Positions 17,605 through 32,680 of a DNA stretch of 64,000 bases are shown piece by piece. Numbering within the stretch: position 1 is the first letter of the stretch; the number at the start of each line of letters is the position of its first letter. Position numbers and translations under genes: made by a program. This DNA comes from Pseudomonadota bacterium (GTDB taxonomy: Bacteria; Pseudomonadota; Alphaproteobacteria; Rhizobiales; Xanthobacteraceae), in assembly GCA_018240595.1 (NCBI GenBank), contig JAFEFL010000025.1:62001-126000 (forward strand), given 5' to 3'. The notes beneath the pieces are model-generated. The model saw only the letters and a program-made list of their open reading frames with translations. It did no database searches and was not told where the DNA came from.

Positions 17605-17610
17605 AAGTCG

Positions 17611-17814: not shown

Positions 17815-17959
17815 CCGCCGGACGCCGTCAATTCCACAGCGCTCCGCTGGTAGCGGGCAACCCTCCCTTCTGATTAGAGATTTCTGTGCCGGAGTATTGT
17901 AGTACACCGGACATTGCCGATATCCTGATACCGTAATATTGCAGCCATGGAGACACCCC

Positions 17960-18109
17960 ATGGAAAGATTCGTTCACCGCGCCAATCTCGAACATTTCCG
18001 ACGTCTGCTGGCCCAGACCACGGACGAGGCGCAGCGTCGCAAGCTTGAAAAGCTCATCGCCGAGGAAGAGGCGAAAGACACTCCGCCGCCGCCGAAGCAG
18101 GACGACTGA
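17960..18109 (+). CDS. 49-aa conserved-looking hypothetical protein
   Basis: This short gene encodes MERFVHRANLEHFRRLLAQT, then TDEAQRRKLEKLIAEEEAKD and a proline/aspartate tail. It is predicted to be a single amphipathic helical hairpin. The pattern (ERF-x-H-x-x-NLEHFRRLL ... R-x-x-L-x-KL-x-AEEEAK) is one I associate with tiny rhizobial proteins often found near stress genes, but no function is known. Confidence 0.6.
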   Translation: MERFVHRANLEHFRRLLAQTTDEAQRRKLEKLIAEEEAKDTPPPPKQDD

Positions 18110-18200
18110 GCGCGCACATCCAAGGGTTGGTTTTTGCCGGTTCAACGCCGGTTGCGGGTGAGCCAGCCCCACCCTGGACTCAATGTGGTTGGGGCCCGCG

Positions 18201-18530
18201 ATGATGTCTCCGGACAAGCAACTTCGCTACGAGATCGCCGCCGCGCTCGCCATCGCGCTGCTGATCTATGGGGCGTCTCGGTTGGCCGGTTCACTTGGCG
18301 TCGGCCTCCTCGGCCTGCTGATCCTGTTCATCGCCGTGCAGGCCGACCTCGACAAGAGCGCGACGTCGGACGTCTGGGCGATGCGGGCGGCACCGTCGCA
18401 TCCCATGGACCGCGCCGAAAACGCCGCGCGCCATGCCGACAGCAATTCGATGAACCAGCCGATCCTGATCGGCAAATGGCTCGGCGCCGGTCTTGCCCTG
18501 ATCGGCCTCGGCCTGTTCTTCTTCGCGTAA
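18201..18530 (+). CDS. Small inner-membrane hypothetical protein
   Basis: This 109-aa protein has two or three hydrophobic stretches: AAALAIALLIYGASRLAG (about 10-28), LGVGLLGLLILFIAV (about 31-45) and LGAGLALIGLGLFFFA at the extreme C terminus. The loop between is polar. No family is recognised. Start codons at 18183, 18201 and 18204 are all possible; the tandem ATGs at 18201/18204 were chosen because MMSPDKQLRYEI gives a short polar N terminus before the first helix. Confidence 0.55.
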   Translation: MMSPDKQLRYEIAAALAIALLIYGASRLAGSLGVGLLGLLILFIAVQADLDKSATSDVWAMRAAPSHPMDRAENAARHADSNSMNQPILIGKWLGAGLALIGLGLFFFA

Positions 18531-18546
18531 CCCCGTCAGGCGCGCG

Positions 18547-18620
18547 GCTCCGGACTTGCCATGCCCTGTCCCGCATCCAGCACAGTCTTGCCAAACAAGA
18601 GCCAATGAACACGCCCGGCG
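18547..18620 (+). pseudogene. Decayed duplicate of the 5' end of the PaaI thioesterase gene
   Basis: This segment aligns with 19166-19240, the upstream edge and first codons of the intact thioesterase gene, at roughly 75 percent identity by eye with a one-base indel. In one frame it still reads LSRIQHSLAKQEPMNT, against LSRIQPSFAKQGLMNT in the intact gene. The remainder of the thioesterase is absent; a minus-strand gene begins its 3' end exactly where the similarity stops. Confidence 0.7.
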
Positions 18621-19001
18621 TCAGCGCCGGGCCCGGCTCCGCAGCGGCACCCGGCACCGGTTGCTGCGCTCGTTGAACGCCATGCCGAGGAACGGCAGCG
18701 CCAGCGAGGTCATGGCCTCGCGCAAGGTCAGTTCGCGGCACTGGGTGCGGCCGACCACCGTGGCATTGACCATGATGCTGATGACGCCGATGCCGACCGC
18801 GATCACCGGCCACGGCGACACCGATGACGCAGACGATGACGGCGACGCGATGGTCTCCGCCACGCATATCCCCGGCGGGATCATGTGCGTGCCGGCAGGA
18901 CAAAAGACGATCAGGGCATGCGCCTTCGGCGCGGGAATCGTGAACGCCGCCGCCAACACTGCCGCAAGCAGCGCCTGCCGTTTCCAACCGCGATGCGCCA
19001 T
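18621..19001 (-). CDS. Exported/membrane hypothetical protein
   Basis: This 126-aa protein starts with a signal peptide (MAHRGWKRQALLAAVLAAAF, then TIPAPKAHA). It has a Cys pair in FCPAGTHMIPPGICVAE, and a second hydrophobic segment WPVIAVGIGVISIMVNATVV near 64-83. The C terminus (LPFLGMAFNERSNRCR) carries two more cysteines. No family is recognised. It is divergent from the intact thioesterase gene and lies between that gene and its decayed copy, so it may mark the insertion or duplication that separated them. Confidence 0.55.
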   Translation of the reverse strand: MAHRGWKRQALLAAVLAAAFTIPAPKAHALIVFCPAGTHMIPPGICVAETIASPSSSASSVSPWPVIAVGIGVISIMVNATVVGRTQCRELTLREAMTSLALPFLGMAFNERSNRCRVPLRSRARR

Positions 19002-19180
19002 CGCCGCTTCCCTGTGCGAGACTCAGCGTTCATGCCTAGCAGGCCGGCAAGTTTGCCCCTTGATCTAGAGCAAGCGCGAGCGGTCCGAGAGCCCGGGCGC
19101 CCTGGCGAACGCGCTTCTGGATCAAGGGCGTTCCGGTCTAGTCTCGCCGCAGTTCTTCCCTCGCCGCTCCGGACCCCGCC

Positions 19181-19609
19181 ATGCCGTTATCCCGCATTCA
19201 ACCGAGCTTCGCCAAACAAGGGCTGATGAACACGCTCGGCGCGCGGCTCGAGACCGTCGAGCCCGGCTTCGTCGAGATCGTCATGACGCCCTCGCCGGCG
19301 ATCTCGCAGCAGCACGGCTTTGTCCATGCCGGTGCAGTGAGCGCGATCGCCGACAGCGCCGCCGGCTATGCCGCGTTGAGCGTGATGCCGGCGGGCTCCG
19401 GCGTGCTCACCGCCGAGTTCAAGATCAACCTTCTGGCGCCGGCGGCCGGCGACAAGATCATCGCCCGCGGCCGCGTCGTCAAAGCCGGCCGCACGCTCAC
19501 GCTGTCGCAGGCCGAAGTCTTCGCCGTGAAGGATGGCGCCGAGAAGCTGATCGCGCTGCTGACCGCGACGATGATGACGATCCACAGCCGCGACGGCATC
19601 GTCGACTAG
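19181..19609 (+). CDS. PaaI-family (hotdog-fold) acyl-CoA thioesterase
   Basis: This 142-aa protein is a hotdog-fold thioesterase of the PaaI/YdiI type. The core motif HGFVHAGAVSAIADSAAGYA (residues about 45-64) contains the HGG-like catalytic loop and the acidic residue (Asp) on the hotdog helix. EFKINLLAPAAGDKIIARG (about 85-103) forms the following strand. Such enzymes hydrolyse aryl- or acyl-CoA thioesters; the substrate is not evident. A partial decayed copy lies 600 bp upstream. Confidence 0.85.
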   Translation: MPLSRIQPSFAKQGLMNTLGARLETVEPGFVEIVMTPSPAISQQHGFVHAGAVSAIADSAAGYAALSVMPAGSGVLTAEFKINLLAPAAGDKIIARGRVVKAGRTLTLSQAEVFAVKDGAEKLIALLTATMMTIHSRDGIVD

Positions 19610-19817
19610 CGCGGTGCGGGGCGCCCTGTGCGGTATTTCCGGCGCGCACGGTAGCCAATTAACGTCTCATTCACCGTGCCGCTCTATTGCCGCACGTCTG
19701 TCCTGAAGCGGCCCGGTTTCGAATTTACGCCTCGTCGCATCGGGACTCGGAGGGAAGTCCCGCGCGGCGCCTGGGGACCGGCGCTGCCGTGACGATCGCG
19801 GTCGAAGGGGACGATCC

Positions 19818-19958
19818 ATGCTGACCAACGTGACCGAGCAGTGTGTGCGCCTCGGACTGGCGCTCGCCCTGATCGCGGTGATTTCTTTCTCGCTCTACCA
19901 GTTCTCCGGCCATGCCCGGCCCGACGGCATGACGCCGGTGTTCACGCCGCTGAACTGA
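19818..19958 (+). CDS. 46-aa single-helix membrane peptide
   Basis: This tiny gene encodes a peptide with one hydrophobic helix (RLGLALALIAVISFSLYQF, about 11-29) and a short C-terminal tail rich in Pro. It resembles the many rhizobial single-pass mini-proteins of unknown role. The only support is the TM profile and an in-frame ATG-to-TGA frame; no strong ribosome-binding site is seen. Confidence 0.4.
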   Translation: MLTNVTEQCVRLGLALALIAVISFSLYQFSGHARPDGMTPVFTPLN

Positions 19959-20163
19959 CAGCCGCAGGCGATACCGCCCTCGATCCGGCCTGACCTCGTC
20001 CGCGCGTTGTCCGGCGACCACGCCGCCATCCTGGCGTGCCGAATTCTCGTTGCATTTAACTCCAGCTGGCAAAGGATTGGCCGGCTTTTGACATTTATCA
20101 ATTCAGCCGCGCGGCGCGTCGCGATTATGGCCAACCGCCGTCTCTCACGTCATTTGAATTGGC

Positions 20164-20334
20164 ATGCCCCAACGTCCGCCGCTGCGCCATTGCCCGATCT
20201 GCGGCATCGCCATGCAAGCCCGGAAGTCGTTACCCGAGGCGGAGCATTTCGATCGCTTCGAATGCCTGAACTGCCACACGACGATCGTGGCGACGCCGGT
20301 ACCGGACGGCGAAGCGCAGGACGACGACGCCTGA
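20164..20334 (+). CDS. Small double-CxxC zinc-ribbon protein (copy d)
   Basis: This 56-aa protein has C10PIC13 and C34LNC37, in the contexts RHCPICGIAM and FDRFECLNCHTTIV, followed by an acidic tail. It is a four-Cys zinc ribbon of the same general type as copies a to c, with the second knuckle again preceded by an aromatic residue and Glu. A TTTTGACA element lies 71 bp upstream of the ATG, as it does for two neighbouring genes. Confidence 0.65.
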   Translation: MPQRPPLRHCPICGIAMQARKSLPEAEHFDRFECLNCHTTIVATPVPDGEAQDDDA

Positions 20335-20470
20335 ATCACGCCGCCGTGAATTATGTGTCCGGTTTTTGACATCGCTCAATATTCCACACCGCGAACGCGC
20401 CTATCGAATTGACATGAGCTGGGCCGCTCGAGTGCCCAGCGATAGCCGCGCCACCGAGGAGACCGTCGCG

Positions 20471-20797
20471 ATGTCGGAAGCTTCAGAGACCCCGCAAGTC
20501 ATGCCTGCGCAGAAGCGCCCGCGGCAGGATCCGGAATTGAGCCACAAGTCCGCGATCATCAAGCGCTCGATCGAACTGCACGGCCACAAGACCAGCGTAT
20601 CGCTCGAGGACCAGTTCTGGGACGGCCTGCGTTTCATCGCCGAGGTCAAACGCACGCCGCTGCCGGCGCTGTTGCAGACCATCGATGGCCAGCGCGGCAA
20701 TGCCAACATGTCGTCGGCGATCCGCGTCTTCGTGCTCGAATATTACCGCAGCCTCAGCACCGCCCAGGCCACCCAGGCCGGCCGGCCGGCGGCGTGA
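20471..20797 (+). CDS. Ribbon-helix-helix domain protein
   Basis: This 108-aa protein has a basic linker (KRPRQDPELSHKSAIIKRSI) followed by an RHH-type domain: HGHKTSVSLEDQFWDGLRFI, then AEVKRTPLPALLQTIDGQRG and SSAIRVFVLEYYR. The beta strand KTSVSLE and the two helices fit the RHH_4 family of predicted DNA-binding proteins. It probably regulates transcription as a dimer; targets are unknown. GAGGAGA upstream of the ATG at 20471 supports the start over an in-frame codon at 20366. Confidence 0.8.
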   Translation: MSEASETPQVMPAQKRPRQDPELSHKSAIIKRSIELHGHKTSVSLEDQFWDGLRFIAEVKRTPLPALLQTIDGQRGNANMSSAIRVFVLEYYRSLSTAQATQAGRPAA

Positions 20798-20863
20798 ACG
20801 GCGCGGGGCGAAAGCGCCCCGCCCGCCCGGCACAACGGCGCGGCGCCGCTCCGGCGCCCGCCA

Positions 20864-20950
20864 ACCGGCTTCAGCGCCGGTTGCGCTCCATGATCGGCTC
20901 CAGCGCCGATCGCGCTCCATGATCGGCGTCAGCGCCGATCGCGCTCCATG
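20864..20950. repeat. Three tandem 29-bp units, each with a hairpin
   Basis: Units 20864-20892, 20893-20921 and 20922-20950 are almost identical (core CAGCGCCGATCGCGCTCCATG). Each contains an inverted repeat around TCAGCGCC or CCAGCGCC. The last unit includes the stop and final codons (MERDRR) of the PYP-like gene, so the array appears to be a repeated duplication of that gene's 3' end. Confidence 0.85.
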
Positions 20951-21309
20951 AACAGCCAGACCCCGCCGTTGCGCGCCGACAAAACGCGGATGCGCACTTC
21001 GCGATCGGGATTGGCCAGATCGCCCGGCAGCGCCAGCTCGAAATCCACATGGCCCTCTTCCATCGCCCGCGTCAGCCGGGCGCGGAAATCGCGCTTGCTG
21101 TCGCAATGCGACACGTCGAAGAAATCGCGGCCGAGCGGCGCCATGCCGTAACCGCTCTCGCGCGCTTCGGTCGCGCTGTAGAACTGCACGACGCAGCGGC
21201 GGTCGAGCAGCACGACGCCGAACGGCAATTGATCCAGTTGATGCTGGCTGAGTTGCTCGATGCGCGCGACGAGGTCGGGCGCATCGAAATCGACGCTGTC
21301 GTCCGCCAT
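20929..21309 (-). CDS. Photoactive yellow protein-like PAS domain protein
   Basis: This 126-aa single PAS domain aligns along its length with photoactive yellow protein (125 aa). The N-terminal cap reads LSQHQLDQLPFGVVLLD. The chromophore-site motif is Y44SATE48 (PYP Y42NAAE46). FFDVSHC69 places a cysteine where PYP C69 binds p-coumarate. The C terminus GGVWLFMERD matches GDSYWVFVKRV. PYP Thr50 and Arg52 are replaced by Ser52 and Tyr54. A blue-light or redox sensor role is therefore possible. The ATG at 21309 gives the PYP length; an upstream in-frame extension is not PYP-like. No lyase or ligase for p-coumarate lies in the window. Confidence 0.7.
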   Translation of the reverse strand: MADDSVDFDAPDLVARIEQLSQHQLDQLPFGVVLLDRRCVVQFYSATEARESGYGMAPLGRDFFDVSHCDSKRDFRARLTRAMEEGHVDFELALPGDLANPDREVRIRVLSARNGGVWLFMERDRR

Positions 21310-21528
21310 CCGGCGCGGGCCCCTTCTGCAGTGTATTAGGCGCGTTTCTTGTACGGTATCAGGCAACCGTAGCGTGGCACGGGAACCCGCGAGTCCACAA
21401 GCGCCATTCGTGGCTTTGCCCACGGGCGGTTAACGGGCCGGCGCACGGGCCGGCATGCCGACAGTCCGGGCGCGCGACAGCGGCACGGTGAATCGCGCGC
21501 GCGGACACCTGACGCGCGCGCACGGCCG

Positions 21529-21702
21529 CTAGTGCTGCGCCGCCCACATATTGTCGATGAGGTTCGGATAAGGCCGGCCGGCCTTTTTGGCGCGCGCCTC
21601 GGCCTTTTCGCGCTGCGCCGGCGTCAGCTTGCCGTGCGTCTTGCGCGGGTTTTTCTTCTTCCAGGGCGGGGTTTTCGCCTGCCTGGTCTTGATGCCGTCC
21701 AT
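21529..21702 (-). CDS. Small basic hypothetical protein
   Basis: This 57-aa protein is highly basic at its N terminus (MDGIKTRQAKTPPWKKKNPR), then KTHGKLTPAQREKAEARAKK and a hydrophobic-aromatic end (GRPYPNLIDNMWAAQH). It has the look of a conserved rhizobial mini-protein that may bind nucleic acid. It stands alone between the PYP-like and fumarase genes. A GAGGAG purine stretch precedes the ATG. Confidence 0.6.
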   Translation of the reverse strand: MDGIKTRQAKTPPWKKKNPRKTHGKLTPAQREKAEARAKKAGRPYPNLIDNMWAAQH

Positions 21703-21788
21703 GATGCGCGCTCCTCTTGAGCCATAACGCAGGACGGCGCCGGATGGATCACCCGGCGCCGCCGCTTACGCATCGCGTTTCGTGAATA

Positions 21789-23432
21789 TCAACCCAAGTT
21801 CAGTTCCTTGAAGAAGTCGTTGCCCTTGTCGTCGATGACGATGAAGGCCGGGAAATCGACGACCTCGATCTTCCAGATCGCTTCCATGCCGAGCTCGGGG
21901 AATTCCTGCACTTCCACCTTCTTGATGCAGTGCTCGGCAAGATTCGCGGCCGAGCCGCCGATGGAGGCGAGATAGAAGCCGCCATGCTTCGTGCAGGCGT
22001 CGCGCACGGCCGAGGAACGGTTGCCCTTGGCAACCGAAATCATCGAACCGCCCGCAGCCTGGAAGGCATCGACATAACTATCCATGCGCCCCGCGGTGGT
22101 CGGGCCGAAGGCGCCGGAGGCATAGCCGTCCGGCGTCTTGGCCGGACCGGCGTAATACACCGGATGGTTCTTGAAGTAGTCCGGCAGGCCCTGCCCGCTC
22201 TCCAGCCGCTCGCGCAATTTGGCGTGCGCCAGATCGCGCGCGACGATCATGGTGCCGGTCAGCGACAGCCGCGTCTTCACCGGATACTGCGACAGCTGCG
22301 CCAGGATCTCCTTCATCGGCTTGCCGAGATCGACCTTCACGACCTCGCCGCCGAGCTTCTCCTGATCGACCTCCGGCAGATACTGCGCCGGGTGATGCTC
22401 GAGCTCCTCGAGGAAGACGCCGTCCTTGGTGATCTTGCCGAGCGCCTGGCGATCGGCCGAGCACGACACGCCGAGACCAATGGGAAGCGACGCGCCGTGA
22501 CGCGGCAGCCGGATGACGCGCACGTCATGGCAGAAATACTTGCCGCCGAACTGCGCGCCGACGCCGAGCGACTGCGTGAGCTTGTGGATCTCCTGCTCCA
22601 TCGCGACGTCGCGGAAGGCGTGGCCGTCCTCCGAGCCTTGCGTCGGCAGGTTGTCGAGATACTTGGTCGAGGCGAGCTTCACCGTCTTCAAGGTCAGCTC
22701 GGCCGAAGTGCCGCCGATGACGATGGCGAGATGGTAAGGCGGGCACGCCGCGGTGCCGAGCGTCAGGATCTTCTCTTTAAGGAACGCCACCAGCCGGTCA
22801 TGCGTCAGGATCGACGGCGTCGCCTGGAACAGGAACGTCTTGTTGGCCGAGCCGCCGCCCTTGGCGACGAACAGGAACTTGTAGGCGTCCTCGCCCTCCG
22901 CATAGATCTCGACCTGCGCCGGCATGTTCGAGCGGGTGTTCTTCTCCTCGAACATCGAGATCGGCGCCAGCTGCGAATAGCGCAGGTTCTTCTTGAGGTA
23001 CGCATCGCGCGCGCCCTCGGCGAGCGCCGCCTCGTCGGAGCCGTCGGTGAACACCAGCCGGCCCTTCTTGCCCATGATGATGGCGGTGCCGGTGTCCTGG
23101 CACATCGGCAGCACGCCGCCGGCGGCGATGTTGGCGTTTTTCAAAAGGTCATAGGCGACGAACTTGTCGTTCGCGGTGGATTCCGGATCGTCCAGCACCT
23201 TGCGCAGCTGCGCGAGATGCGCGGGGCGCAGCAGATGGTTGATGTCCTCGAACGCCGCCTCCGACAGCGCCTTGATGGCCGAGCCCTCGACCACCAGCAT
23301 GTCGCGGCCCATCACCTTCTCGACCCGCACGCCCTCGGACGTGATCTTGCGGTACTTCGTGGTGTCCGGCCCCAGCGGAAACAGGGGCGAATGGTGGTAG
23401 GCGGGCAAGGGCGATGGGATGGGGGCGTTCAT
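21789..23432 (-). CDS. fumA: Fumarate hydratase, class I ([4Fe-4S])
   Basis: The 547-aa product interconverts fumarate and malate in the TCA cycle using an oxygen-sensitive [4Fe-4S] cluster. Likely cluster ligands are the cysteines in [12 protein letters not shown] (near 112), [10 protein letters not shown] (near 235) and [12 protein letters not shown] (near 325). The C-terminal part ([32 protein letters not shown]) is the beta domain of the fused single-chain enzyme. The ATG at 23432 follows GGAGCCACCAAG and was preferred over an in-frame codon 30 nt upstream. It stands alone. Confidence 0.95.
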
Positions 23433-23567
23433 CTTGGTGGCTCCGAATGCTAGTTCGGGCACCTTTTAGACGGTCTCAAGTGGGTCGTCATCAAGTAGTG
23501 CCCGACCGCCATAAGATCATATTCTGCGCGAACGGATAAAGCGACCGGAGCACTAACCACCAACCCC

Positions 23568-24446
23568 TCAGAAATCTCGGTAATAGCTACGAGATCGACC
23601 GTCAGTCTCGCCTAATAAATAGAGGTATTTATGTCGCCAAAACTCATCTGAGAACTCAAAATTTGCAGATGCGTCCGGCCATAGCCGAAGATGTCTCTCA
23701 GCATCGCAATACTTAGCCCTTTCGCCGGGAATACTGATGGGCAAATCCTCGCCATACCCGCGGCGACGCCCTGAAAGAACTCCATCCACCTTCCGAATAT
23801 CCTTTTCGTAGAGATGGAATGAGGTCGCCAAGTGCGTATAGCGTCCTATTGGCCGACCAATCTCAACCGCCATAAGCTCTTGCAAGACCGTGTAAAGATA
23901 TACGTCGTATGGAAATCCAAAATAAGCATCGTTACTGCGCATAAGCACGGTTAAATCCAAATTGCCATCTCGAATATTGAACTGAACGCTCATTGCGCAA
24001 CTTACGTCGGGCGAGCCTACATAATTTTGATCGGGGTCATACAGCTGTATTACAGCCCGACGCGTGTCTGGGTCCGCAACCAAAAGCTCGCGACAAATCT
24101 CCCACTGACTACGTCCTTGCGACATAGGAGAAAACATTCGGTAGCCATAGCAGCTTCCATGAATCTCCTGCCCAACGGCAAACCGGCGCCATACCCGAGC
24201 ATATGCGGCCAAACCCTCCACGTCCCGCGAGCCTGACAAGTGCCAAGCCAATTCTCCGAACGCCAGACCAATGTTCCAACGACGCGTAGCGTTTGTGATT
24301 AAGCGATTGCGAGGATTCTCAATTCTACAGACCAGGTGGTCAATCTCACGGGTTTCAAGTCCACGCGGACTTGACCTAACGGAACTACTTGCCGCAGCGC
24401 CAAGCAACTCAACATAAGCCTCATCGGCGCTTGAAAATGTCAACAA
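23568..24446 (-). CDS. Thymidylate-synthase-fold enzyme with Asn-to-Asp switch; predicted (d)CMP hydroxymethylase
   Basis: This 292-aa protein aligns with thymidylate synthase over its catalytic core. E65 and W86 correspond to E. coli ThyA E58/W80; R129/R130 (PDTRRAVIQ) bind phosphate; C150 (DVSCAMSVQFN) is the nucleophile; R170-S-x-D173 and H211-L-Y213 are in place. The Asn that reads dUMP (N177) is D181 here (FGFPYDVYLY). That is the change found in phage dCMP hydroxymethylases and nucleoside-antibiotic CMP hydroxymethylases, so a cytosine nucleotide substrate is predicted. The start is TTG at 24446, one base after the stop of the upstream membrane gene, implying coupling. Its sequence is far more AT-rich than its neighbours, which suggests recent transfer. 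Confidence 0.75.
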   Translation of the reverse strand: MLTFSSADEAYVELLGAAASSSVRSSPRGLETREIDHLVCRIENPRNRLITNATRRWNIGLAFGELAWHLSGSRDVEGLAAYARVWRRFAVGQEIHGSCYGYRMFSPMSQGRSQWEICRELLVADPDTRRAVIQLYDPDQNYVGSPDVSCAMSVQFNIRDGNLDLTVLMRSNDAYFGFPYDVYLYTVLQELMAVEIGRPIGRYTHLATSFHLYEKDIRKVDGVLSGRRRGYGEDLPISIPGERAKYCDAERHLRLWPDASANFEFSDEFWRHKYLYLLGETDGRSRSYYRDF

Positions 24447-24447
24447 A

Positions 24448-25188
24448 TCAGCGATTCTCCATTGCGCTCAGCCTATCATCGAGTTTGCGCAACCTTTTCT
24501 CAAGAGCATCCTTCTCTGCCTTGATACCGGGCGCATGATAGTCATTATAATAGCTCTGTGCGAAATATGCATTTGAGTTTATTATGATAGCACCTAGCGT
24601 AAGAACAGCCGCCACCACCGCTACAAAAATCGCCGACGCAATGCCAATTGCCCCCGCGAACTTTATGAGATTTGCATTCAAAGCCTCCTTCAGAATTTCA
24701 TTTGCGTCGAGAAACTTGTCGCCAAAATTTTGAATGGCCTGCGTTCGCTTCTCAGATACATACTTTTCCATTCCAAAGACGATTGGACTCACTGCTTCCG
24801 AAGCGTGCGAATGAAATGTTAATCTGAGGAACTGATCACCCGCCTTGAGCAAATGGGTAGACTTACCAAAGTTAAGGAGCGGGGTTGATAGTGGCCCGCT
24901 CCACAAGGGATCGACCATACCTGTATTGAGAGCAAGTATGCCTTCATTGCAAAGGCCAGTTTTTATGTGCGCCATCGCCGTAACATCGCTAGGAAGCGAC
25001 ACTATTTCGCTAGATACGATCCACGCAACTTCTTGCGGCTTGAGCTTGTATTCTTCGCGATGAACTGTCCCTTTCGAATCGATGACACATCCTATTCGGA
25101 GGTCATATGTACTCGCGCGGGCTGAAGACTCGGCATAGCCAGCTATTATATCCTTTAGCGAGATCTGACTTCGGCTAAGTATCGGCAT
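24448..25188 (-). CDS. dCTP-deaminase/dUTPase-fold protein fused to a transmembrane helix and coiled coil
   Basis: This 246-aa protein begins like dCTP deaminases (MPILSRSQISLKDIIAG) and keeps ASTYDLRIG near 25-33 and ALNTGMVDPLWSG near 86-98, with D93. The deaminase catalytic Glu (in VLEFYN of Dcd) is replaced by Pro103 (STPLLN), and the RSS motif is replaced by KTG (77-79). It is therefore probably not a deaminase; nucleotide binding or sensing is likelier. Residues about 176-203 form one TM helix, and the C terminus (KDALEKRLRKLDDRLSAMEN) is a coiled coil. GGGGGAG supports the ATG at 25188. It forms an operon with the downstream TS-like gene and is equally AT-rich. Confidence 0.7.
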   Translation of the reverse strand: MPILSRSQISLKDIIAGYAESSARASTYDLRIGCVIDSKGTVHREEYKLKPQEVAWIVSSEIVSLPSDVTAMAHIKTGLCNEGILALNTGMVDPLWSGPLSTPLLNFGKSTHLLKAGDQFLRLTFHSHASEAVSPIVFGMEKYVSEKRTQAIQNFGDKFLDANEILKEALNANLIKFAGAIGIASAIFVAVVAAVLTLGAIIINSNAYFAQSYYNDYHAPGIKAEKDALEKRLRKLDDRLSAMENR

Positions 25189-25259
25189 CACCCACTCCCC
25201 CAAATCCCAGCGGCACATTCGTCGGACCGAACTTCTATCCAAGCAGGGATTCGTTCAAG

Positions 25260-25468
25260 CTAGTAGCCCGCAGGCCTGGCTTAGCGCAGCGCAATCCGCC
25301 TTCCCCCACAATCCGGCGCGTTACGCCTGCGGCTAACGCGCCCTACGCACGACCTCTCCCGGCCTCATCCCGAGGAGCATTGCGAAGCAATGCGTCTCGG
25401 AGGATCGAGGCCGCCCCATCCTTCGAGACGCGGCCTGCGGCCGCTCCTCATGATGAGGCGGAAGAGTC
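25260..25468. repeat. Mosaic of rhizobial dispersed intergenic repeats
   Basis: The region contains GGCTTAGCGCAGCGCAATCC, a GCGTTACGCCTGCGGCTAAC palindrome, and a pair of inverted segments around CCTCATCCCGAGGAGC and CCTCATGATGAGG with TGCGAAGCAATGCGTCTCG between them. Such units are scattered in Bradyrhizobium-type genomes. Here they bound one side of the AT-rich two-gene island. Confidence 0.6.
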
Positions 25469-25469
25469 C

Positions 25470-25688
25470 TCACCCCTCGACAACCTCCAACTCCCCTACC
25501 GCTTTCTTCGTCGGCTTCACCGTCACCGTTACGTCCTGTCCGAGCGCGGTCAGAAACTCCAGCAAGCGCCCGACCGAGAACGGACCGCCGCGATTGCGCA
25601 GCAGCGCCGAGACATTCGGCTGCTTGATGCCGAGCGCGGCGGCGGCCTGCGCCAGTTTGCGCGCCTTGACGATCCGGTAGATTTGCAA
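25470..25688 (-). pseudogene. Truncated XRE/HigA-type HTH protein
   Basis: The visible 72 codons (TTG start) match the C-terminal two thirds of HigA-like XRE antitoxins: KLAQAAAALGIKQPNVSALL is the helix-turn-helix, followed by FSVGRLLEFLTALGQDVTVTV. The usual 30 to 40 residue N-terminal segment is missing and an in-frame stop lies ten codons upstream. No toxin gene is adjacent. It is probably a remnant of a toxin-antitoxin locus. Confidence 0.6.
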
Positions 25689-25809
25689 AGCGCATGGTCC
25701 GAAATTATGGGTCAGCCCTTATGCCCCATCAAAGGCGCGCATGGCCGGGCGCCCGCGCCAGATTTCTATCCCACCGCCCTTGACCCGCCTTTCTTCCTAT
25801 GCTTTTATC

Positions 25810-26330
25810 CCTTTTGCCGGGCTCATGAGAGGGCGTCGTCGCGAGACGTTCCGATGATGGAGCCGCCTCCCCGCAAGGGAAGGCCGTGACGAGGGCAACC
25901 TCGGAATGGCGGTGCGGCGCCTGCGCGCCAGGCTCGTAACCTGGCGTCCGGGAGTCCGCGGGCAGCCGTCCGGGGCTACTACGAGCCCCCGCCCTTCAGT
26001 GGGCTGGACGCGGTGCCGGTGAAGGCGGGCGAAAGCCTGCCGGAGGTCGTCGCTCCGCGAGGGGCGCCGATCGTGACCGTCGCCCGGAAGCTACGGCCCC
26101 GCGGACTTAAGGAAGAACGCCGCCGTGGCGCGCCGCTGGGCGCGAGGCGCATCCGGCAACGGATGCGCAAATGGCAGCGCCTTTCGGCGCGCCACACCCT
26201 CTCGTTCGAGAGGTTCAGGAATTCAAAGGCAAAGACAGGCGAACCCGGCGCCTCGACAAACAACACGGGCGACGACGCGCGACTTCGCGCAGGCGGGGCC
26301 GCACGCCAAGCTGTTTGACAACTGAATCGG
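25810..26330 (+). ncRNA. Candidate large structured non-coding RNA (strand uncertain)
   Basis: This stretch of about 500 bp lacks a convincing gene but is dense with well-formed hairpins, many with short or GNRA-like loops. Examples are GGCGGGC-GAAA-GCCTGCC (26025-26042), GCGCATCC-GGCAAC-GGATGCGC (about 26146-26167), GCGCC-TTTC-GGCGC (about 26176-26190), CTCTCG-TT-CGAGAG (about 26199-26212) and GCGCG-ACTT-CGCGC (about 26278-26291). I could not match it to tmRNA, RNase P or SRP RNA. Reading frames across it are Arg/Gly-rich and unlike proteins. The class, ends and strand are inference. Confidence 0.4.
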
Positions 26331-26350
26331 AACGCCGCCGCTCGCCGCGC

Positions 26351-26587
26351 TCAGGCGCTGCGCTTGACGCCGAAATTGACGGGCCCGCGCCGCGGCGCGG
26401 GCGGCGGCTCGGCGGCGCCGGCTCCCTCGAGCGGCTTGAGGTCCTTCGCCCGGTAGATGGCGCGCCGGTCGCAGCTTCGGCATTTCACCGAGAACTCGTC
26501 GGTGACGACATGCCAGTCCTTGATGACGTTGGGCGCGCCGCAGCGCGCGCAACAGACGACCCTCGGCGAGGGCTGCCGGCCGATCAT
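26351..26587 (-). CDS. Small double-CxxC zinc-ribbon protein (copy f)
   Basis: This 78-aa protein has C13-x-x-C16 in VVCCARCGAPN and C36RSC39 in FSVKCRSCDRRAIY, followed by a Pro/Ala-rich and basic tail. It should bind one zinc ion. It differs from copies a to d by its long C-terminal tail and an extra Cys at position 12. GGAGGCGGTC directly before the ATG at 26587 fixes the start. Confidence 0.7.
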   Translation of the reverse strand: MIGRQPSPRVVCCARCGAPNVIKDWHVVTDEFSVKCRSCDRRAIYRAKDLKPLEGAGAAEPPPAPRRGPVNFGVKRSA

Positions 26588-26630
26588 GACCGCCTCCATC
26601 CAAAGCAACTCGCTGGAGCGACAACGCCGC

Positions 26631-26795
26631 TCAGCGCAGTTGGGTCGAGATCGACGTCAATTTTGTGTTCAGCTTGGTGCCGATGCCGTTCACCGTGGCG
26701 ATGATGACGAGCGAAATGCCGGCGGCGATCAGGCCGTATTCGATGGCGGTGGCGCCGCTCTGGTCGGCGATGAAACGCGCGATGAGATTACGCAT
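26631..26795 (-). CDS. Flp-family type IVb pilin subunit
   Basis: This 54-aa prepilin has a short basic leader (MRNLIARFIADQSG) and then ATAIEYGLIAAGISLVIIAT, the hydrophobic N-terminal helix of Flp pilins. The G/A-T-A-I-E-Y-G motif contains the prepilin-peptidase cleavage site and Glu5. Flp pilins polymerise into Tad pili used for surface attachment. No tad/cpa assembly genes are in the window, so this is an orphan pilin gene or depends on a locus elsewhere. Confidence 0.9.
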   Translation of the reverse strand: MRNLIARFIADQSGATAIEYGLIAAGISLVIIATVNGIGTKLNTKLTSISTQLR

Positions 26796-27130
26796 GTGTA
26801 CGAGCTCCGTTTCCAACGGTGAGGTTGGAGTTCGTACCCTTCTGGGATGTCGGGAAAGGCGCGAAATACTTTCGCGCCGGTGCCTAAGGTGTAACGGCAA
26901 TCGATTGCGAAGCCGCTAAAAATGATCGTTAATTTTAGCCGTTGCGTTGGGCAATATTTGCCGGGTCGCGCTTTCAACCGCCTGTTCCGCAAAGCCAGGG
27001 CCCATCGCGCGATTGCACGGCGCGGCCGGGAATTCACCGCGCCGATACCCGGCATATCGACTTTGGATTGGGCCGCGCGCGGCCGCGGCGCTAGCGTTGC
27101 GGCAAGCAACAAACGCCGGGATGAAACGCC
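26796..27130. other. Divergent promoter region with two inverted repeats
   Basis: The 335-bp gap between the Flp pilin gene and the solute-binding protein gene holds a perfect hairpin GGCGCGAAA-TAC-TTTCGCGCC at 26858-26878 and an AT-rich palindrome (GCTAAAA ... TTTTAGC) at about 26914-26938. These may be operators or a terminator-like element in the pilin leader. No gene is seen. Confidence 0.45.
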
Positions 27131-27946
27131 ATGATGACGAGGCTCCAAGCGCTCCGTTTCGCTTTCCTCGGTTTTGCCGCGCTGATGCTGGCGCCGTACG
27201 CGGCGCTGGCGGCGCCGCCGGACGCGGCGGTTCAGCATGCGCTGGCGCCGTCCGGCGCGCTCAAGGTCGGCGTCTATCGCGGCAGCCCCTCCTCGATCAT
27301 CGAGGGCAAGACGCCGGAAGAGAACCGCGGCGTCGGCTACGACCTCGGCAAGGCGCTGGCCGCCGCGCTCGGCGTCAAGTTCGAGCCGGTGATCTATCCG
27401 GCCAATGCGCCGCTCCTCAAGGCGGTCCATGCCGGCGAGGTCGATATCGTCTTCACCAACGCCACCAAGGCGCGGGCGAGGACCATGGATTTCTCGCAGC
27501 CCTTCATGGGCGTCGAGAAGAGCTTCCTGGTGCCGGCGGGCTCGAAGCTGAAGACGCAGGACGACGCCACGCAGAAGGGCCTCAGGATCGGCGTCAGCAA
27601 GGGCAGCAGCACGGCCCGGGAGCTGACCGAGCAGTTCCCGCAGATGACGCTGACCGAGGTCGATACGCTCAAGCATGCCGGCGAGATGCTGGCCGCCCAC
27701 GAGATCGATGCCTTCGCCACCAACAACGCCATTCTCTACGAGCTGTCCGACCATGTGCCGGGCTCGGCGGTGCTGCCCGGCCATTGGGGCATGGAGCATT
27801 TCGGCGCCGGCATTCCGCAGGGCCGCCAGGCGGGCATGCCGTTCCTGCGCGATTTCATGGCCAAGGCGATGGCCGACGGCACGGTCGACCGGGCGATCAA
27901 GCGGGCCAACCTGCGCGGCACGGTGCCGGAAACCATCAAGAACTGA
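27131..27946 (+). CDS. Periplasmic solute-binding protein, family 3 (amino-acid type)
   Basis: This 271-aa protein has a signal peptide (hydrophobic residues 8-27, cleavage near ALA-APP). The mature part is a type II periplasmic binding protein: GALKVGVYRGSPSS (about 42-55), VGYDLGKALAAALGVKFEPV (about 68-87) and AGEVDIVFTNATKARARTMD, followed by FSQPF. GISKGSS-like IGVSKGSSTA marks the second lobe. Family members deliver amino acids to ABC importers. No permease or ATPase gene is adjacent, so the gene is an orphan and the ligand is unknown. Confidence 0.85.
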   Translation: MMTRLQALRFAFLGFAALMLAPYAALAAPPDAAVQHALAPSGALKVGVYRGSPSSIIEGKTPEENRGVGYDLGKALAAALGVKFEPVIYPANAPLLKAVHAGEVDIVFTNATKARARTMDFSQPFMGVEKSFLVPAGSKLKTQDDATQKGLRIGVSKGSSTARELTEQFPQMTLTEVDTLKHAGEMLAAHEIDAFATNNAILYELSDHVPGSAVLPGHWGMEHFGAGIPQGRQAGMPFLRDFMAKAMADGTVDRAIKRANLRGTVPETIKN

Positions 27947-28074
27947 GGAAGAATTGAGGCCGCCGTTTCAAGTTCCGTGCATCCTCACCATGATCCCCAA
28001 CATGGGCATTATTTAATTTCCGCTCCGGCAACCCCGCTGTTAAATCGTCGGCCTGCATTCGGAGGGTTTGGGTG

Positions 28075-28617
28075 ATGACGGTGACGACGTCGCAGATGGC
28101 GGTGGCCGGGCTGCTGTGCCTCGGTCTCACGGCATGCGCCGCGACCGGGCCTGCCGCGCCATCGTTCGCGGTGATGCCGGGCAAGGGCAAGTCCTACGAA
28201 AGCTTCCAGCGCGAGGACCAGTACTGCCAGGCGCAGGCGCAGGCGGCGATCGGCTACAAGTCGCCCGGCGAGGAAGCCAACCAGAGCGCCATCGGCGGCG
28301 CCGCCGTCGGCACCGCGCTCGGCGCGCTGGGCGGCGCGGCCATCGGCTCGCTGTCCGGCAATATGGGCGCCGGCGCGGCGATCGGCGCCGGCACCGGCCT
28401 GGTCGCGGGCAGCGTCGTCGGCGCCAACAACGCCAATGCCACCGGCGGCTCGCTGCAACAGCGCTTCGACACCACCTATGCGCAGTGCATGACCGCCAAG
28501 GGCAACGTCATCCCACCGCCGCCCACGACCTATGTCGTGACGCCGCCGCCGCCGACGGTCGTCTACGAGGACGATGGCCCCTATTATCATCGCGGCTGGG
28601 GCTGGCACCGCTGGTGA
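28075..28617 (+). CDS. Glycine-zipper lipoprotein
   Basis: This 180-aa protein has a lipoprotein signal (LLCLGLTACAATG, lipobox LTAC, lipidated Cys near 21). A Gly/Ala-rich glycine-zipper segment follows (AIGGAAVGTALGALGGAAIG and AGAAIGAGTGLVAGSVVGA, about 70-118) that could insert in or associate with the outer membrane. The C terminus is Pro/Tyr/Trp-rich. GGAGGG lies 9 bp before the ATG at 28075. Function unknown. Confidence 0.75.
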   Translation: MTVTTSQMAVAGLLCLGLTACAATGPAAPSFAVMPGKGKSYESFQREDQYCQAQAQAAIGYKSPGEEANQSAIGGAAVGTALGALGGAAIGSLSGNMGAGAAIGAGTGLVAGSVVGANNANATGGSLQQRFDTTYAQCMTAKGNVIPPPPTTYVVTPPPPTVVYEDDGPYYHRGWGWHRW

Positions 28618-28748
28618 GCGCGGGCGGCCTCGCCGTCCACAGACACGGAGCCGGGTCGCCGCGCCGGCCGGAGCGGCATTGACGTGCCGCGCCTCATCTG
28701 CAATCTCGCTGATCGCCGTCACCCGTTGGAATCAGCAAGAACAACAAT

Positions 28749-29288
28749 ATGGCTCCCCGTCCCTTCCGCCTCGGCCGGTCCCGCACGGGCCTCGGCATCT
28801 TCGCCACCCGCCCCATCAAGAAGCGCACCACCATTGCCGAATACCGCGGCAAGATGCTCGGCATCGACGCGGCGCTGAAGGCGGAGAAGAGCGGCAACCG
28901 CTATCTCTACGAAGTCAATTCGAAGTGGACCATCGACGGAGCCAAGCGCGGCAACATCGCCCGCTACTTCAACCACTCCTGCAATCCCAACGCCGACACC
29001 TTCATCCGCGACCGCCGCGTCTTCATCCGCACCATCAAGAACGTCGAGCCGGGTGACGAGATCTGCTACGATTACGGCCGCGATTATCTCAAGAACGTCA
29101 TCGGCCTGGAGAACTGCCAGTGCTCGCGCTGCCGCAAGCGCCGGGCCAGGGAGCGCGCCGAAGCGCGCGAGCGCAATGCGCGCAGGAAGAAGCGGCTTGC
29201 CGCCAAGGGCCCGACCCAGGGCAAGGCCGTGAAGAAGACTGCGGCGAAGAAGAAAAAGACCGTCAAGTCGCGCAAGACGAAACGCTAG
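28749..29288 (+). CDS. SET-domain protein-lysine methyltransferase with histone-like basic tail
   Basis: The N-terminal 125 residues of this 179-aa protein are a SET domain: RSRTGLGIFATRPIKKRTTI at the start, RYFNHSCNPNADTF (the SAM and lysine-channel NHSCxPN motif, about 76-89), and EICYDYGRDY with the catalytic Tyr (about 101-110). A post-SET CQCSRC motif follows. The tail is Lys/Arg/Ala-rich (KKTAAKKKKTVKSRK), like a histone H1 C terminus. SET enzymes transfer methyl groups from SAM to protein lysines; bacterial targets here are unknown. A second SET gene starts 5 bp downstream, so the two form an operon. Confidence 0.88.
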   Translation: MAPRPFRLGRSRTGLGIFATRPIKKRTTIAEYRGKMLGIDAALKAEKSGNRYLYEVNSKWTIDGAKRGNIARYFNHSCNPNADTFIRDRRVFIRTIKNVEPGDEICYDYGRDYLKNVIGLENCQCSRCRKRRARERAEARERNARRKKRLAAKGPTQGKAVKKTAAKKKKTVKSRKTKR

Positions 29289-29293
29289 GGCCG

Positions 29294-29746
29294 ATGGCGA
29301 AGGCGAAAGCCCCGGCGCGCAAGGACAAGGACAAGCCGAAGCTTTATCGCGTCGGCCGCGCCCGCACCGGTCTCGGGCTGTTCGCCGCCGCCGATATCCC
29401 GTCGGGCAAGTTGCTGATCGAATATACCGGCACCCGCATCCCGACCCGGCAGGCGCGCGAAATCGACAAGCGCCGCGCCAATAAATACCTGTTCGAGATC
29501 GACAACCGTTTCACCATCGACGGCTCGCCGCGCACCAATCTCGCGCGCTATGTCAATCACTCCTGCGATCCGAACACCGAAGCGGAATCGAACCGCGGCC
29601 GGCTGATGTTCCGTACCGTGCGCAAAATCGCCAAGGACGAGGAGATCACCCTCGACTATGGCGAGGAGCACATGGAACTGTATTTCGGCCCCGGCGGCTG
29701 CTTGTGCGACGTCTGCGCGGCCGCGAATAAAAAGAAGAAGCGCTAG
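29294..29746 (+). CDS. Second SET-domain protein-lysine methyltransferase
   Basis: This 150-aa protein is a paralogue of the upstream gene. It has RARTGLGLFAAADIPSGKLL, LARYVNHSCDPNTEAE, and EITLDYGEEHMELYFGPGGC with a post-SET-like CLCDVC. It lacks the long basic tail but begins and ends with Lys-rich stretches (MAKAKAPARKDKDKPK, KKKKR). The ATG at 29294 lies 5 bp after the upstream stop; longer in-frame starts fall inside the first gene. Its stop overlaps the convergent GST gene by 4 bp. Confidence 0.87.
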   Translation: MAKAKAPARKDKDKPKLYRVGRARTGLGLFAAADIPSGKLLIEYTGTRIPTRQAREIDKRRANKYLFEIDNRFTIDGSPRTNLARYVNHSCDPNTEAESNRGRLMFRTVRKIAKDEEITLDYGEEHMELYFGPGGCLCDVCAAANKKKKR

Positions 29747-30447
29747 GTGTCGAGCTCCGGATAGTGCCGGAAGATGCCGTCCTCGTTGAACGGGATGCGG
29801 CGATCGGATGCGACATAGGCCTTGATGCCCTCGCGCTCGCCGACGCGCTCGCGCACCTCGATCACCCGCGGCACCTTGCGCTCCGCCTTGGCCATGGCTT
29901 TCGGGAACGCATAGCGCAGGCCCTCGACGAGTTGGAACAGCGACAGGTCGGTGTAACTAATGCGCCGGCCCATCAGATACGGCCCGCCGCTGTGCGCGAT
30001 GACGCCGTCGAAATAGCTCAGATATTTCGGCACGCGCTCCTTGAGGAAATACTCGGCGTAGGTTTTCGCCTCGGCCTTCTGGTCTTCGTAATAAAGCCCG
30101 GTCGCAATCGGATGGTGCGTGTCGTGCACTTCCTTGACGAAGTCGGTCACGGTGAGTTGCAGGGCGTTCAGCCACAGCCTCGCGTTCTCGTCCTTGGGCG
30201 CGAGGCCAAGGCGCGGCCCGAGATAGAACAGGATATTGGCGACCTGGGCGATCACAAGTTTGCCGTTCTTCAGGAACGGCGGGGCGAAGGGCGGGCGTTT
30301 TTCGCCCTGCATCATCGCCATCATGCGGTTCATGCCGCCCTTCCCGCGGGCGACATCCGTGTACTTGGCGCCGGCGTCCTCGAGCGCGAGGCGGACGAAT
30401 TCGCCGCGGCCCTGAATGCCCGGCCAGTAATAGAGTTCGTAAGCCAT
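29743..30447 (-). CDS. Glutathione S-transferase family protein
   Basis: This 234-aa protein has an N-terminal thioredoxin-like GST domain (YELYYWPGIQGRGEFVRLAL, PPFLKNGKLVIAQVANILFY with the cis-Pro and glutathione-binding region) and a C-terminal helical domain (GGPYLMGRRISYTDLSLFQL). Tyr at the start of the first strand suggests an alpha/mu/pi/sigma-like class. Substrate unknown. The start at 30447 (MAYELYYWPG) is family-like; an in-frame ATG at 30465 adds a basic hexapeptide and overlaps the stop of the diguanylate cyclase gene upstream. Confidence 0.85.
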   Translation of the reverse strand: MAYELYYWPGIQGRGEFVRLALEDAGAKYTDVARGKGGMNRMMAMMQGEKRPPFAPPFLKNGKLVIAQVANILFYLGPRLGLAPKDENARLWLNALQLTVTDFVKEVHDTHHPIATGLYYEDQKAEAKTYAEYFLKERVPKYLSYFDGVIAHSGGPYLMGRRISYTDLSLFQLVEGLRYAFPKAMAKAERKVPRVIEVRERVGEREGIKAYVASDRRIPFNEDGIFRHYPELDT

Positions 30448-30461
30448 GGCTTTCTTCTGCT

Positions 30462-31721
30462 TCACTTGGTCAGCGGACCGATAACGCGGTTGCGGCCGCT
30501 CTGCTTGGCCTCATAGAGCCGCCGATCGGCGACCGCGAACAAGTCATCGTAGTCCGTCGCGTCGCGGCCGCAACTAGCCACCCCGATCGACACCGTGATT
30601 TGGCCGCCGGCCGGATCACGCGCGGCGGCGACGGCGGCGCGGATGTGTTCGGCGTGCTCGGTGGCGTCGGCGCCGCCGACGCCGTCGGCGATGACGACGA
30701 ATTCCTCGCCGCCGAACCGGTAGGTGAAATCCGACAGCCGGCTCGCGGCCATGATGTCGTGCGCGACCTGGCGCAGCAGGCGGTCGCCGGCCGCGTGGCC
30801 GAAGCGGTCGTTAAAGCCTTTGAAGTGATCAAGGTCGATCAGCAGCAGCGACAAAGGCCGCCCGGCGGCCGCGGCGCTGTCGACGGCGCGGCGGCCATAG
30901 GCCTCCAGCGAATGCCGGTCGAGCGCCCCGGTCAGCGCATCGCAGCCGGTGCGCGCCAAGAGACTCTCATAACGCTCGCGATAGGTCAGCGTATCGAACA
31001 CGTCGCGGAGGCGCGGCACCGCCCGGCGACCGAGCGGCCGGTCGTAGCGTGTGAGATACAGCGTGCCCAGAACGCTATAGAGAGCCACCGCGCCCATCTT
31101 GGCGATCCAGCCGCCGATCAGCACCGGCAGACCGGCCCCGGTCAGGAAATTCAGCCCCGCGAAGAACGCCGCCTGATCGAAGGTCAGCACCGCGGCGCTC
31201 GACAACAGCAACCGCACGAAGACATGGCCGCCGAACCAGGCGCGCGTGCGCTCGTAGAGCAGGATGATGATGATGCAGTCGAGAAACAGGATCGCGGTGC
31301 CCCACACCATGAGCCCGCCCATTTCGTCGAGGAACACGAAGTCGGCCGAACGGCCCTCGGCGATCGGCAGCACGTTGTGATGGCGCAGGATGAAGCCGAG
31401 CGCGAACACCAGCACGTTGCCGAACAGCAATCCGTAGATCGGCTGGCGAACGACGACGGCGTCTTCGCGGATGTACAGCAGCAGGAGCAGCATCAGTTTG
31501 CCGGCGAACAGCACGGTCGAGCCTGGCGACGCGACGATGCCGAATGGCAACGTCACGTAGAAGATGCTTGCAAGATAAGTCTCGAGGAAGTGCAGCACGC
31601 CAAGCGCGCAGAAGAACGGGCCGAGGCCAATGCGATCACGCGCGCCCAGCAGCGCCGCCAATGCTGCGAAATAGAGCAGCGCGTCTCCCGCCAGAAGCAG
31701 GACGTTCTCGATCTCAGCCAT
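30462..31721 (-). CDS. Membrane diguanylate cyclase (GGDEF)
   Basis: This 419-aa protein has about seven hydrophobic helices in residues 5-225 (a MASE-like sensory membrane region with no clear family). A cytoplasmic GGDEF domain follows: DALTGALDRHSLEAYGRRAV, LIDLDHFKGFNDRFGHAAGD, and RLSDFTYRFGGEEFVV. The active-site signature is GGEEF and the RLSD five residues before it is a product-inhibition I-site. It should make cyclic di-GMP from two GTP. A PilZ receptor gene and the flagellar locus lie downstream on the map. It reads towards and nearly overlaps the GST gene. Confidence 0.9.
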   Translation of the reverse strand: MAEIENVLLLAGDALLYFAALAALLGARDRIGLGPFFCALGVLHFLETYLASIFYVTLPFGIVASPGSTVLFAGKLMLLLLLYIREDAVVVRQPIYGLLFGNVLVFALGFILRHHNVLPIAEGRSADFVFLDEMGGLMVWGTAILFLDCIIIILLYERTRAWFGGHVFVRLLLSSAAVLTFDQAAFFAGLNFLTGAGLPVLIGGWIAKMGAVALYSVLGTLYLTRYDRPLGRRAVPRLRDVFDTLTYRERYESLLARTGCDALTGALDRHSLEAYGRRAVDSAAAAGRPLSLLLIDLDHFKGFNDRFGHAAGDRLLRQVAHDIMAASRLSDFTYRFGGEEFVVIADGVGGADATEHAEHIRAAVAAARDPAGGQITVSIGVASCGRDATDYDDLFAVADRRLYEAKQSGRNRVIGPLTK

Positions 31722-31827
31722 TGCCGTTGCGCGCCATTTGCGGCGCAGCCCCGCATTCCCCAAGGATTTGATATAGCGGTGCAGCCGTTAAAAGGACAGC
31801 GTCACGTTGGCGCGGTACCCAAATGCA

Positions 31828-31855
31828 GAACGGGCGGCCGCGCGGCCGCCCGTTC
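31828..31855 (-). terminator. Palindromic probable terminator
   Basis: AACGGGCGGCCGCGCGGCCGCCCGTT is nearly perfectly self-complementary in both directions. It lies 25 bp after the stop of the lectin-like gene. The U-run on the minus strand is weak (TTCTGCATTT), so efficiency is uncertain. Confidence 0.5.
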
Positions 31856-31879
31856 GATTTGTCGATCTCGGCACGTGGT

Positions 31880-32554: not shown

Positions 32555-32680
32555 AGAGGTGACCTCCCGACGTTATCGGCGCGGGCTCGATTGGCCCCGC
32601 GCCTTGCCGGTAGCTAACACCGATGTGCCTTCCCTATTCCGCGTGCGTTTTGTCGCAGGCACGGCGGTACCTGCCTCCAA

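Follow-up and report, generated by a model that had tools for sequence, protein, structure and literature searches.

A membrane-tethered dCTP deaminase-fold protein and its predicted dCMP 5-hydroxymethylase partner: a possible nucleotide-based anti-phage module in an alphaproteobacterium

In the 64,000-nucleotide stretch of alphaproteobacterial DNA analysed here (the window; bases 62001-126000 of contig 24 of its genome), two adjacent genes on the reverse strand encode a dCTP deaminase (DCD)/dUTPase-fold protein fused to a predicted transmembrane (TM) helix, termed DCD-TM, and a thymidylate synthase (TS)-superfamily enzyme predicted to be a dCMP 5-hydroxymethylase. The elements seen at the level of sequence are the gene pair, the hydroxymethylase signature of the putative enzyme, the loss of a Glu and a Gln from a pocket that is otherwise kept, a hydrophobic helix, and the repeated pairing of DCD-TM with pyrimidine enzymes. 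The pair may form an anti-phage module in which the modified nucleotide of the enzyme, phosphorylated during infection, would switch on the membrane protein, a reading that we put forward tentatively and at somewhat less than an even chance. The features discussed are the following, in window coordinates.

24448..25188, reverse strand: DCD-TM, a DCD/dUTPase-fold domain with TM helix and coiled coil; predicted membrane nucleotide receptor (Pfam, TIGRFAM, alignment, AF2)
24784..25188, reverse strand: DCD domain, about residues 1-135
24880..24882, reverse strand: codon 103 (Pro), in the catalytic-Glu column of dCTP deaminases (Glu in 0/131 family sequences)
24580..24636, reverse strand: predicted TM segment, residues 185-203, inside the AF2 helix 162-245
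24460..24504, reverse strand: coiled-coil-like C-terminal heptads, residues 229-243 (Leu/Met at 4-3-4-3 spacing)
23568..24446, reverse strand: TS-superfamily enzyme, predicted dCMP 5-hydroxymethylase (best PDB match MilA, 5.2e-38; signature residues)
21789..23462, reverse strand: class I fumarate hydratase, conserved anchor of the hotspot (PF05681/PF05683)
25470..25688, reverse strand: HTH_37 gene on the far side of the cargo (PF13744, 50.8 bits; matching stretch in the same-genus locus L035)
23470..25260, no strand assigned: low-GC cargo block beside the fumarase gene (GC of the pair 0.489 vs 0.648 for the window; synteny break)

The DCD-TM gene proposed in the earlier note is real: its open reading frame spans 24448-25242, and translation from the ATG at 25188 gives a 246-residue protein beginning MPILSRSQI. 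The Pfam DCD model (PF22769) matches it at 27.1 bits against a cut-off of 27, and TIGR02274, the curated dCTP deaminase family, gives 50 bits, under its cut-off of 92.8. The DCD fold is recovered in the AF2 model (a single run on the monomer with 73 sequences) and in its matches to known structures. ASTYDLRIG and MVDPLWSG are kept and KTG stands for the RSS motif, just as the earlier note had read them. Its placement of Pro103 at the deaminase Glu also holds, as the housekeeping dCTP deaminase L023, aligned as a control, has Glu in that column; this residue, E138 of E. coli Dcd, is found in none of the 131 aligned family members. The TM helix and the C-terminal coiled coil were likewise correctly seen. 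The TM core has a mean hydropathy of 2.75 and lies within residues 162-245, which form a single helix in the model, with pLDDT 70-78 in parts; the structure-database matches cover residues 2-153 and so stop short of this helix. Leu or Met occupies residues 229, 233, 236, 240, and 243. The topology is ambiguous, with two basic residues in the 20 positions before the segment and one in the 20 after it.

In the profile search that the earlier note had proposed together with a census of neighbouring genes, the family profile matched 237 proteins at E ≤ 1e-6, and 127 of the 131 aligned sequences carry a TM stretch; the architecture is thus more than chance. Many listed members of the family bear the name 'deoxycytidine triphosphate deaminase'. 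Two candidates were dropped, namely L023, a housekeeping dcd with Glu and no TM segment that was kept as the control, and L002, a DCD domain whose end weakly matches a Crp-type HTH. In the window's own genome (4.9 Mb), an HTH-like stretch, recognised by eye, lies in frame with a degenerate DCD-like domain on contig 67 (L063:2233-3207), a possible nucleotide-sensing transcription factor.

The partner gene starts at a TTG one base past the DCD-TM stop codon. The earlier note had called its product TS-like, and the Pfam Thymidylat_synt model does score over its cut-off, with all eight matched NCBIfam TS models under theirs. As a thymidylate synthase, this assignment gives way to that of a predicted dCMP 5-hydroxymethylase. 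The best solved match is MilA, a CMP 5-hydroxymethylase, and ThyA lies far behind (1.2e-14). Residues mapped from the literature place the nucleophile at C150, with E65 and H211/Y213. Alignment to 3qj7 puts D181, the cytosine-specific Asp, where ThyA has a uracil-type Asn, and ThyA was rejected on this position and on the curated NCBIfam scores. S98, Y100, D147, C150, and D181 agree with the hydroxymethylation and cytosine signatures of T4 dCH. A Ser-x-Tyr motif together with an Asp three residues before the Cys is given as the likely signature of hydroxymethylation in the relevant part of the T4 paper (PMC6400193), and the partner has both (S98 and Y100; D147). S171 and R129 are deoxyribose-type residues that replace the CMP-type Ala and Lys of MilA, according to the contrast drawn in a section of PMC5175136, and a MilA-like CMP hydroxymethylase was rejected on these two positions. 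The partner has in common with T4 gp42 and MilA the Cys, Glu, His/Tyr, cytosine Asp, and hydroxymethylation Ser/Tyr/Asp, and differs from MilA in its dCMP-type Ser and Arg. In setting, the partner is chromosomal, bacterial, and coupled to a DCD-TM gene, whereas gp42 belongs to a phage DNA-modification set and MilA to an antibiotic cluster.

The same ten residues occur in all 14 full-length close relatives of the partner; the other two of the closest 16 proteins are the partner itself and a short protein that lacks the first three positions. The partners in L003-L006 carry all ten, and the five-residue signature is present in 12 of the other 108 aligned sequences (a set that includes L003-L006, and a count that accepts Thr in place of Ser and Glu in place of Asp). 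For eight of the 13 closest DCD-TM proteins (P0001-P0013, the window included), the longest contig has the same size as that of a hydroxymethylase, which suggests that the two share contigs. Among the five without a size match, four have no contig over 2.2 kb, and the fifth (P0009, 52 kb) has no match among the 120 hydroxymethylase relatives listed. The window's genome encodes another, full-scoring ThyA as well as other DCD-domain proteins, and genes of these families are thus not confined to the pair.

Only DCD-TM sequences served as queries for all loci except those of E. coli, so that the search favoured no partner in the ten closest loci (the window, L003-L007, L009, L019, L024, and L046), each of which carries a dCMP-type partner. 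Five of these have a hydroxymethylase-type TS (the window and L003-L006) and seven a PF00383 deaminase-family gene (L003, L004, L007, L009, L019, L024, and L046), the two occurring together in L003 and L004. All seven deaminases match PF00383 and contain HAE and PCxxC motifs, and they are inferred from their nearest relatives to act on dCMP. Their best NCBIfam match is in each case the anti-phage dCTP deaminase NF041025, at 46-78 bits against a cut-off of 400 bits. DCD-TM is rare. Four samples, with the own genome counted in, gave 1 of 200, 2 of 198, 4 of 397, and 3 of 398 genomes, and a sample of the class gave 6 of 385, among them the housekeeping dcd L023. These figures are lower bounds; scoring stopped at six first-look candidates per genome in some samples, and neither thresholds nor models were uniform.

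Further from the window, the partner changes. A distant DCD-TM gene overlaps that of ThyX, the FAD thymidylate synthase (L020:5637-7321; PF02511, 1.1e-47). ThyX is unrelated to ThyA and would likewise act on a pyrimidine dNMP. This case comes from a distant branch, as L020, L021, and L022 are the three family members that lack the otherwise conserved Arg122. No recognised partner is present in L021 and L022, and L047 stops at a contig end. In L040, L041, and L042 the partner is a HAD phosphatase, SerB-like by its best models; a pyrimidine 5'-nucleotidase was rejected, the UMPH-1 match being weak and the SerB-like models scoring higher. The DCD-TM/HAD arrangement occurs in 5 of 5,426 E. coli genomes searched with the L042 pair; at the DNA level the HAD part alone matched, and DCD-TM was recognised afterwards. 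DCD-TM is full-length in L049, L051, and L052, and in L050 and L053 only a 429-base remnant of it is annotated. In all five the pair adjoins a primase-helicase gene, with psu annotated in L050, and the host element looks like a P4-like satellite. Duplicates were not counted again (L056 is a copy of L003, and L057 shares both its DCD-TM and its HAD with L042). The Pfam DCD model is over its cut-off in L020-L022, L040, L042-L045, and L048 and under it in L049 (25.0 bits) and L041 (21.0 bits); visual inspection was the basis for calling TM helices in L040-L045, L048, and L049.

Other, less clear neighbours accompany L043, L044, L045, and L048. On a plasmid, DCD-TM overlaps a SAM methyltransferase gene followed by a gene annotated as adenylosuccinate synthetase and DUF7002 (L043:5995-10252). 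The distant DCD-TM genes of L044, L045, and L048 occur with ImmA/IrrE (annotated in the first two, recognised by eye in the third), a C1 peptidase and UDG in two of them, and MazG/MazG_C in one; UDG lies near L044, and both UDG and MazG within 5 kb in L045. Recurrent neighbours of 166 and 194 amino acids in L044 and L048 are 64% identical to each other and match no Pfam family. With deaminase, ThyX, or HAD phosphatase elsewhere in place of the hydroxymethylase, DCD-TM is the constant part, and its partner appears to be swapped among families mostly acting on pyrimidine nucleotides. The coupling to a TS-like gene noted earlier thus holds as a conserved pairing with a partner enzyme, and not as a fixed pairing with one kind of enzyme.

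The description of DCD-TM as apparently non-catalytic is borne out in part. A functional dCTP deaminase was rejected on the absence of Glu in 131 of 131 sequences. Glu loss alone does not mean that the protein is non-catalytic, since the nearest solved structures, the DCD-type dUTPases 8y1w and 9ln0, also lack this residue. The fold and the motif-3 Asp of DCD-type and trimeric dUTPases are present. In these enzymes the motif-4 Gln has a catalytic role, and it is found in all five hydrolases whose alignments were examined; DCD-TM has Arg122 at this position, as do 128 of the 131 family members, and Gln occurs in none. The replacement of this Gln by Arg appears to be the stronger argument against catalysis. 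The pocket is otherwise well conserved, with D93 and N106 in all 131 sequences, T77 in 124, and Lys or Arg76 in 128. Compared with DCD-type dUTPases and dCTP deaminases (T. pacificus dUTPase 8y1w; E. coli Dcd), DCD-TM thus lacks both Glu and the hydrolase-type Gln, carries F107 (128 of 131), F120 (129 of 131), and R122, and adds a pre-TM FxxxFL motif, the TM helix, and the coiled coil. Since catalytic residues are lost, the pocket is intact, and a TM helix is attached, these features point to a ligand-gated membrane effector.

A catalytic alternative fits nearly as well as this sensor reading, and we consider it unlikely. Here DCD-TM would be a membrane pyrophosphatase converting dCTP or dUTP to dCMP or dUMP, and the partner would consume the monophosphate, draining or poisoning the pyrimidine pool during infection. 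The kinship to dUTPases that also lack Glu and the invariant D93 agree with it, as does the fact that hydroxymethylase, deaminase, and ThyX would use dCMP or dUMP, the product of such an enzyme. The substitution of Arg for the Gln of all five hydrolases stands against it, and it leaves the TM helix in 127 of 131 members unexplained. DCD-TM may also be a plain dNTP pyrophosphatase.

Under the preferred reading, in which DCD-TM senses a modified nucleotide, the partner enzyme would make 5hm-dCMP, which a phage or host dNMP kinase and the host NDK would raise to 5hm-dCTP. This product would take the place of dCTP in the DCD domain, which probably forms a trimer with a cytoplasmic pocket. Binding would rearrange the long TM/coiled-coil helices, depolarising or permeabilising the membrane, and the damage would stop the infection along with the cell. 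Relatives would work likewise, their deaminase, ThyX, or phosphatase either providing or clearing the ligand to which their own DCD-TM responds. The bifunctional Dcd:dut of M. tuberculosis is described, in part of PMC10742078, as digesting dCTP and not 5hm-dCTP (a statement on activity, not binding), so the activity of a DCD fold can tell the two apart. Kongming consists of KomA, KomB, and KomC, and this set is not found at the window locus: the pair belongs to the DCD and TS families, is flanked by the fumarase and HTH_37 genes, and has no PADLOC match. A section of PMC12948488 describes the Kongming alarm as dITP, made from a dNMP by KomA with phage and host kinases. It is the precedent for the logic proposed here, which runs through the same steps, from modification of a dNMP by an enzyme, through its conversion by kinases into a non-canonical dNTP, to a receptor that fires; the enzyme, base, receptor fold, and effector all differ. 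DefensePredictor (PMC13092281, in the portions concerned) places a TS domain in an experimentally validated anti-phage system and a 'dUTPase' domain in a predicted, unvalidated one; compared by description only, these portions describe no membrane DCD protein with a hydroxymethylase. Among the papers listed in literature searches, none described a membrane DCD protein paired with these enzymes; an earlier mention is possible, for example in Burroughs et al. (2015).

The deaminases of the relatives bring to mind a different division of labour, which we think quite unlikely, in which the partner is a toxic effector and DCD-TM a membrane regulator that restrains or releases it according to dCTP or dTTP levels. 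These deaminases share a superfamily with the anti-phage dCTP deaminase, six of the seven are encoded divergently from DCD-TM, and AvcD is described in part of PMC10511110 as a deoxycytidylate deaminase restrained by an RNA antitoxin. Central dC nucleotides and deaminase-family partners in seven relatives are the likeness to AvcID and the anti-phage dCTP deaminase; the differences are that the relatives' deaminases have 158-192 residues against the 437 positions of the model and that none is seen beside the window pair, with tblastn of 16501-32500 using three relatives' deaminases finding no deaminase gene. Four partner families (TS-type, deaminase, ThyX, and HAD) would also all have to need the same kind of regulator, and DCD-TM occurs without a recognised enzyme in L021 and L022.

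The HAD partner turns the question around. A SerB-like HAD would destroy nucleotides, if it acts on them, and so fits ligand removal better than signal synthesis. In a guard arrangement of this kind, which seems distinctly improbable, turnover by the partner would keep DCD-TM off until a phage upset the pyrimidine pool by host DNA breakdown or a phage dCTPase. Such a guard would suit a phosphatase as well as a dCMP consumer, and inhibitory nucleotide signalling is known from Panoptes, as passages of PMC12657218 and PMC12657230 report; no observation separates ligand making from ligand removal.

The cargo block lies upstream of the class I fumarase gene, and no other stretch of equal length in the window has so low a GC content (a value of 0.489 or less in 0 of 624 sliding windows). 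The 5' part of the fumarase gene is matched strongly in 24 of 30 same-genus genomes (own included), with a short weak match only in a 25th. In eleven same-genus loci, collinearity with the window ends at about 23400-23490; within flanks of up to 1.5 kb, it returns at about 25264 in L026 and L030, and L035 matches again at the HTH gene. Of the 12 same-genus loci returned, L025 is the own genome, L036 was left out, and L026-L035 were compared. All ten of the latter have low GC (0.40-0.55) in the first 900 bases upstream of fumarase. The DCD-TM gene is absent from the 10 other same-genus genomes listed in a genome sample. Ten ORFs, one from each, show no similarity to one another or to the window pair at E 1e-3; Pfam names four of them (NOV_C, PIN, RES, and AIPR/AbiU-like), and PADLOC matches two, one weakly. 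The stretch upstream of fumarase is a turnover hotspot. The only tRNA found in 15000-35000 lies at 20779-20870, away from the cargo edge, and a promoter and terminator scan gave one terminator-like site against 2.2 expected and five promoter-like sites against 1.6. A phage-borne origin of the pair was rejected, as tblastn with DCD-TM in 50,697 phage records found nothing at 1e-5; in viral contigs, query A2 gave one locus and query A4 three. No known defence gene lies beside the pair, by Pfam on six proteins and PADLOC on the pair alone.

Defence-type genes accompany several relatives. In 24 regions scanned by tblastn with genes from the loci, Vsr was found in three (L004, L009, and L024, with Pfam Vsr in all three) and a C5-methylase match in five (the same three, L006, and L041). 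The Vsr and Dcm-type genes lie within about 5 kb of DCD-TM in L004, L009, and L024; Vsr is otherwise uncommon, with 26 over-cut-off matches in 115 genomes of the class. PADLOC, run on ten chosen neighbours and so giving no rate, reports MzaA/MzaB next to L007, a type II restriction-modification enzyme pair next to L041, and, at a distance of 4 kb from L024, a GajA-like gene. According to part of PMC9122126, the P2/P4 hotspots of E. coli serve as known reservoirs of defence genes, and the cargo named there includes HAD proteins; the E. coli DCD-TM/HAD pair is on the primase-helicase side of the satellite, outside the published psu-int site. On the plasmids L011, L059, and L060, aGPT-Pplase3/ADDT genes and one for ImmA/IrrE come after a TS-like gene and make up a further cassette centred on nucleotides.

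Very doubtful is a role in ordinary metabolism or DNA modification, with the pair supplying 5hm-dC nucleotides or tuning dTTP synthesis apart from phage: TS-type enzymes on three other plasmids do adjoin genes of a DNA-base modification family (aGPT-Pplase3/ADDT), but the DCD-TM distribution is patchy, low-GC, and mobile, the own genome has another ThyA, and Pfam names no DNA-modifying enzyme among the six proteins examined at the pair and close by. The pair would by inference be a variant of nucleotide-based anti-phage immunity. The undescribed nucleotide-based system suggested in the earlier note is thus a fair reading, given a predicted tethered DCD fold without the deaminase residue, a conserved partner enzyme, and mobile, often defence-type neighbourhoods, with the identity of the partner corrected.

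More broadly, and with less confidence than for the module itself, DCD-TM could represent a new class of immune receptor, in which a dead dCTP-deaminase trimer joined to a membrane helix would read non-canonical pyrimidine dNTPs and kill the cell, plug-in enzymes (dCMP hydroxymethylase, dCMP deaminase, ThyX, or HAD phosphatase) would set the signal, and cytosine hydroxymethylation of the T4 type would serve as the alarm. The relatives in E. coli satellites make this reading directly testable. If true, it would explain a family of 'dCTP deaminases' that are likely misnamed in databases, would mean that bacteria possess their own dCMP hydroxymethylase, apart from those of phages and antibiotic clusters, and would add a new receptor fold and a new signal chemistry to nucleotide-based immunity.
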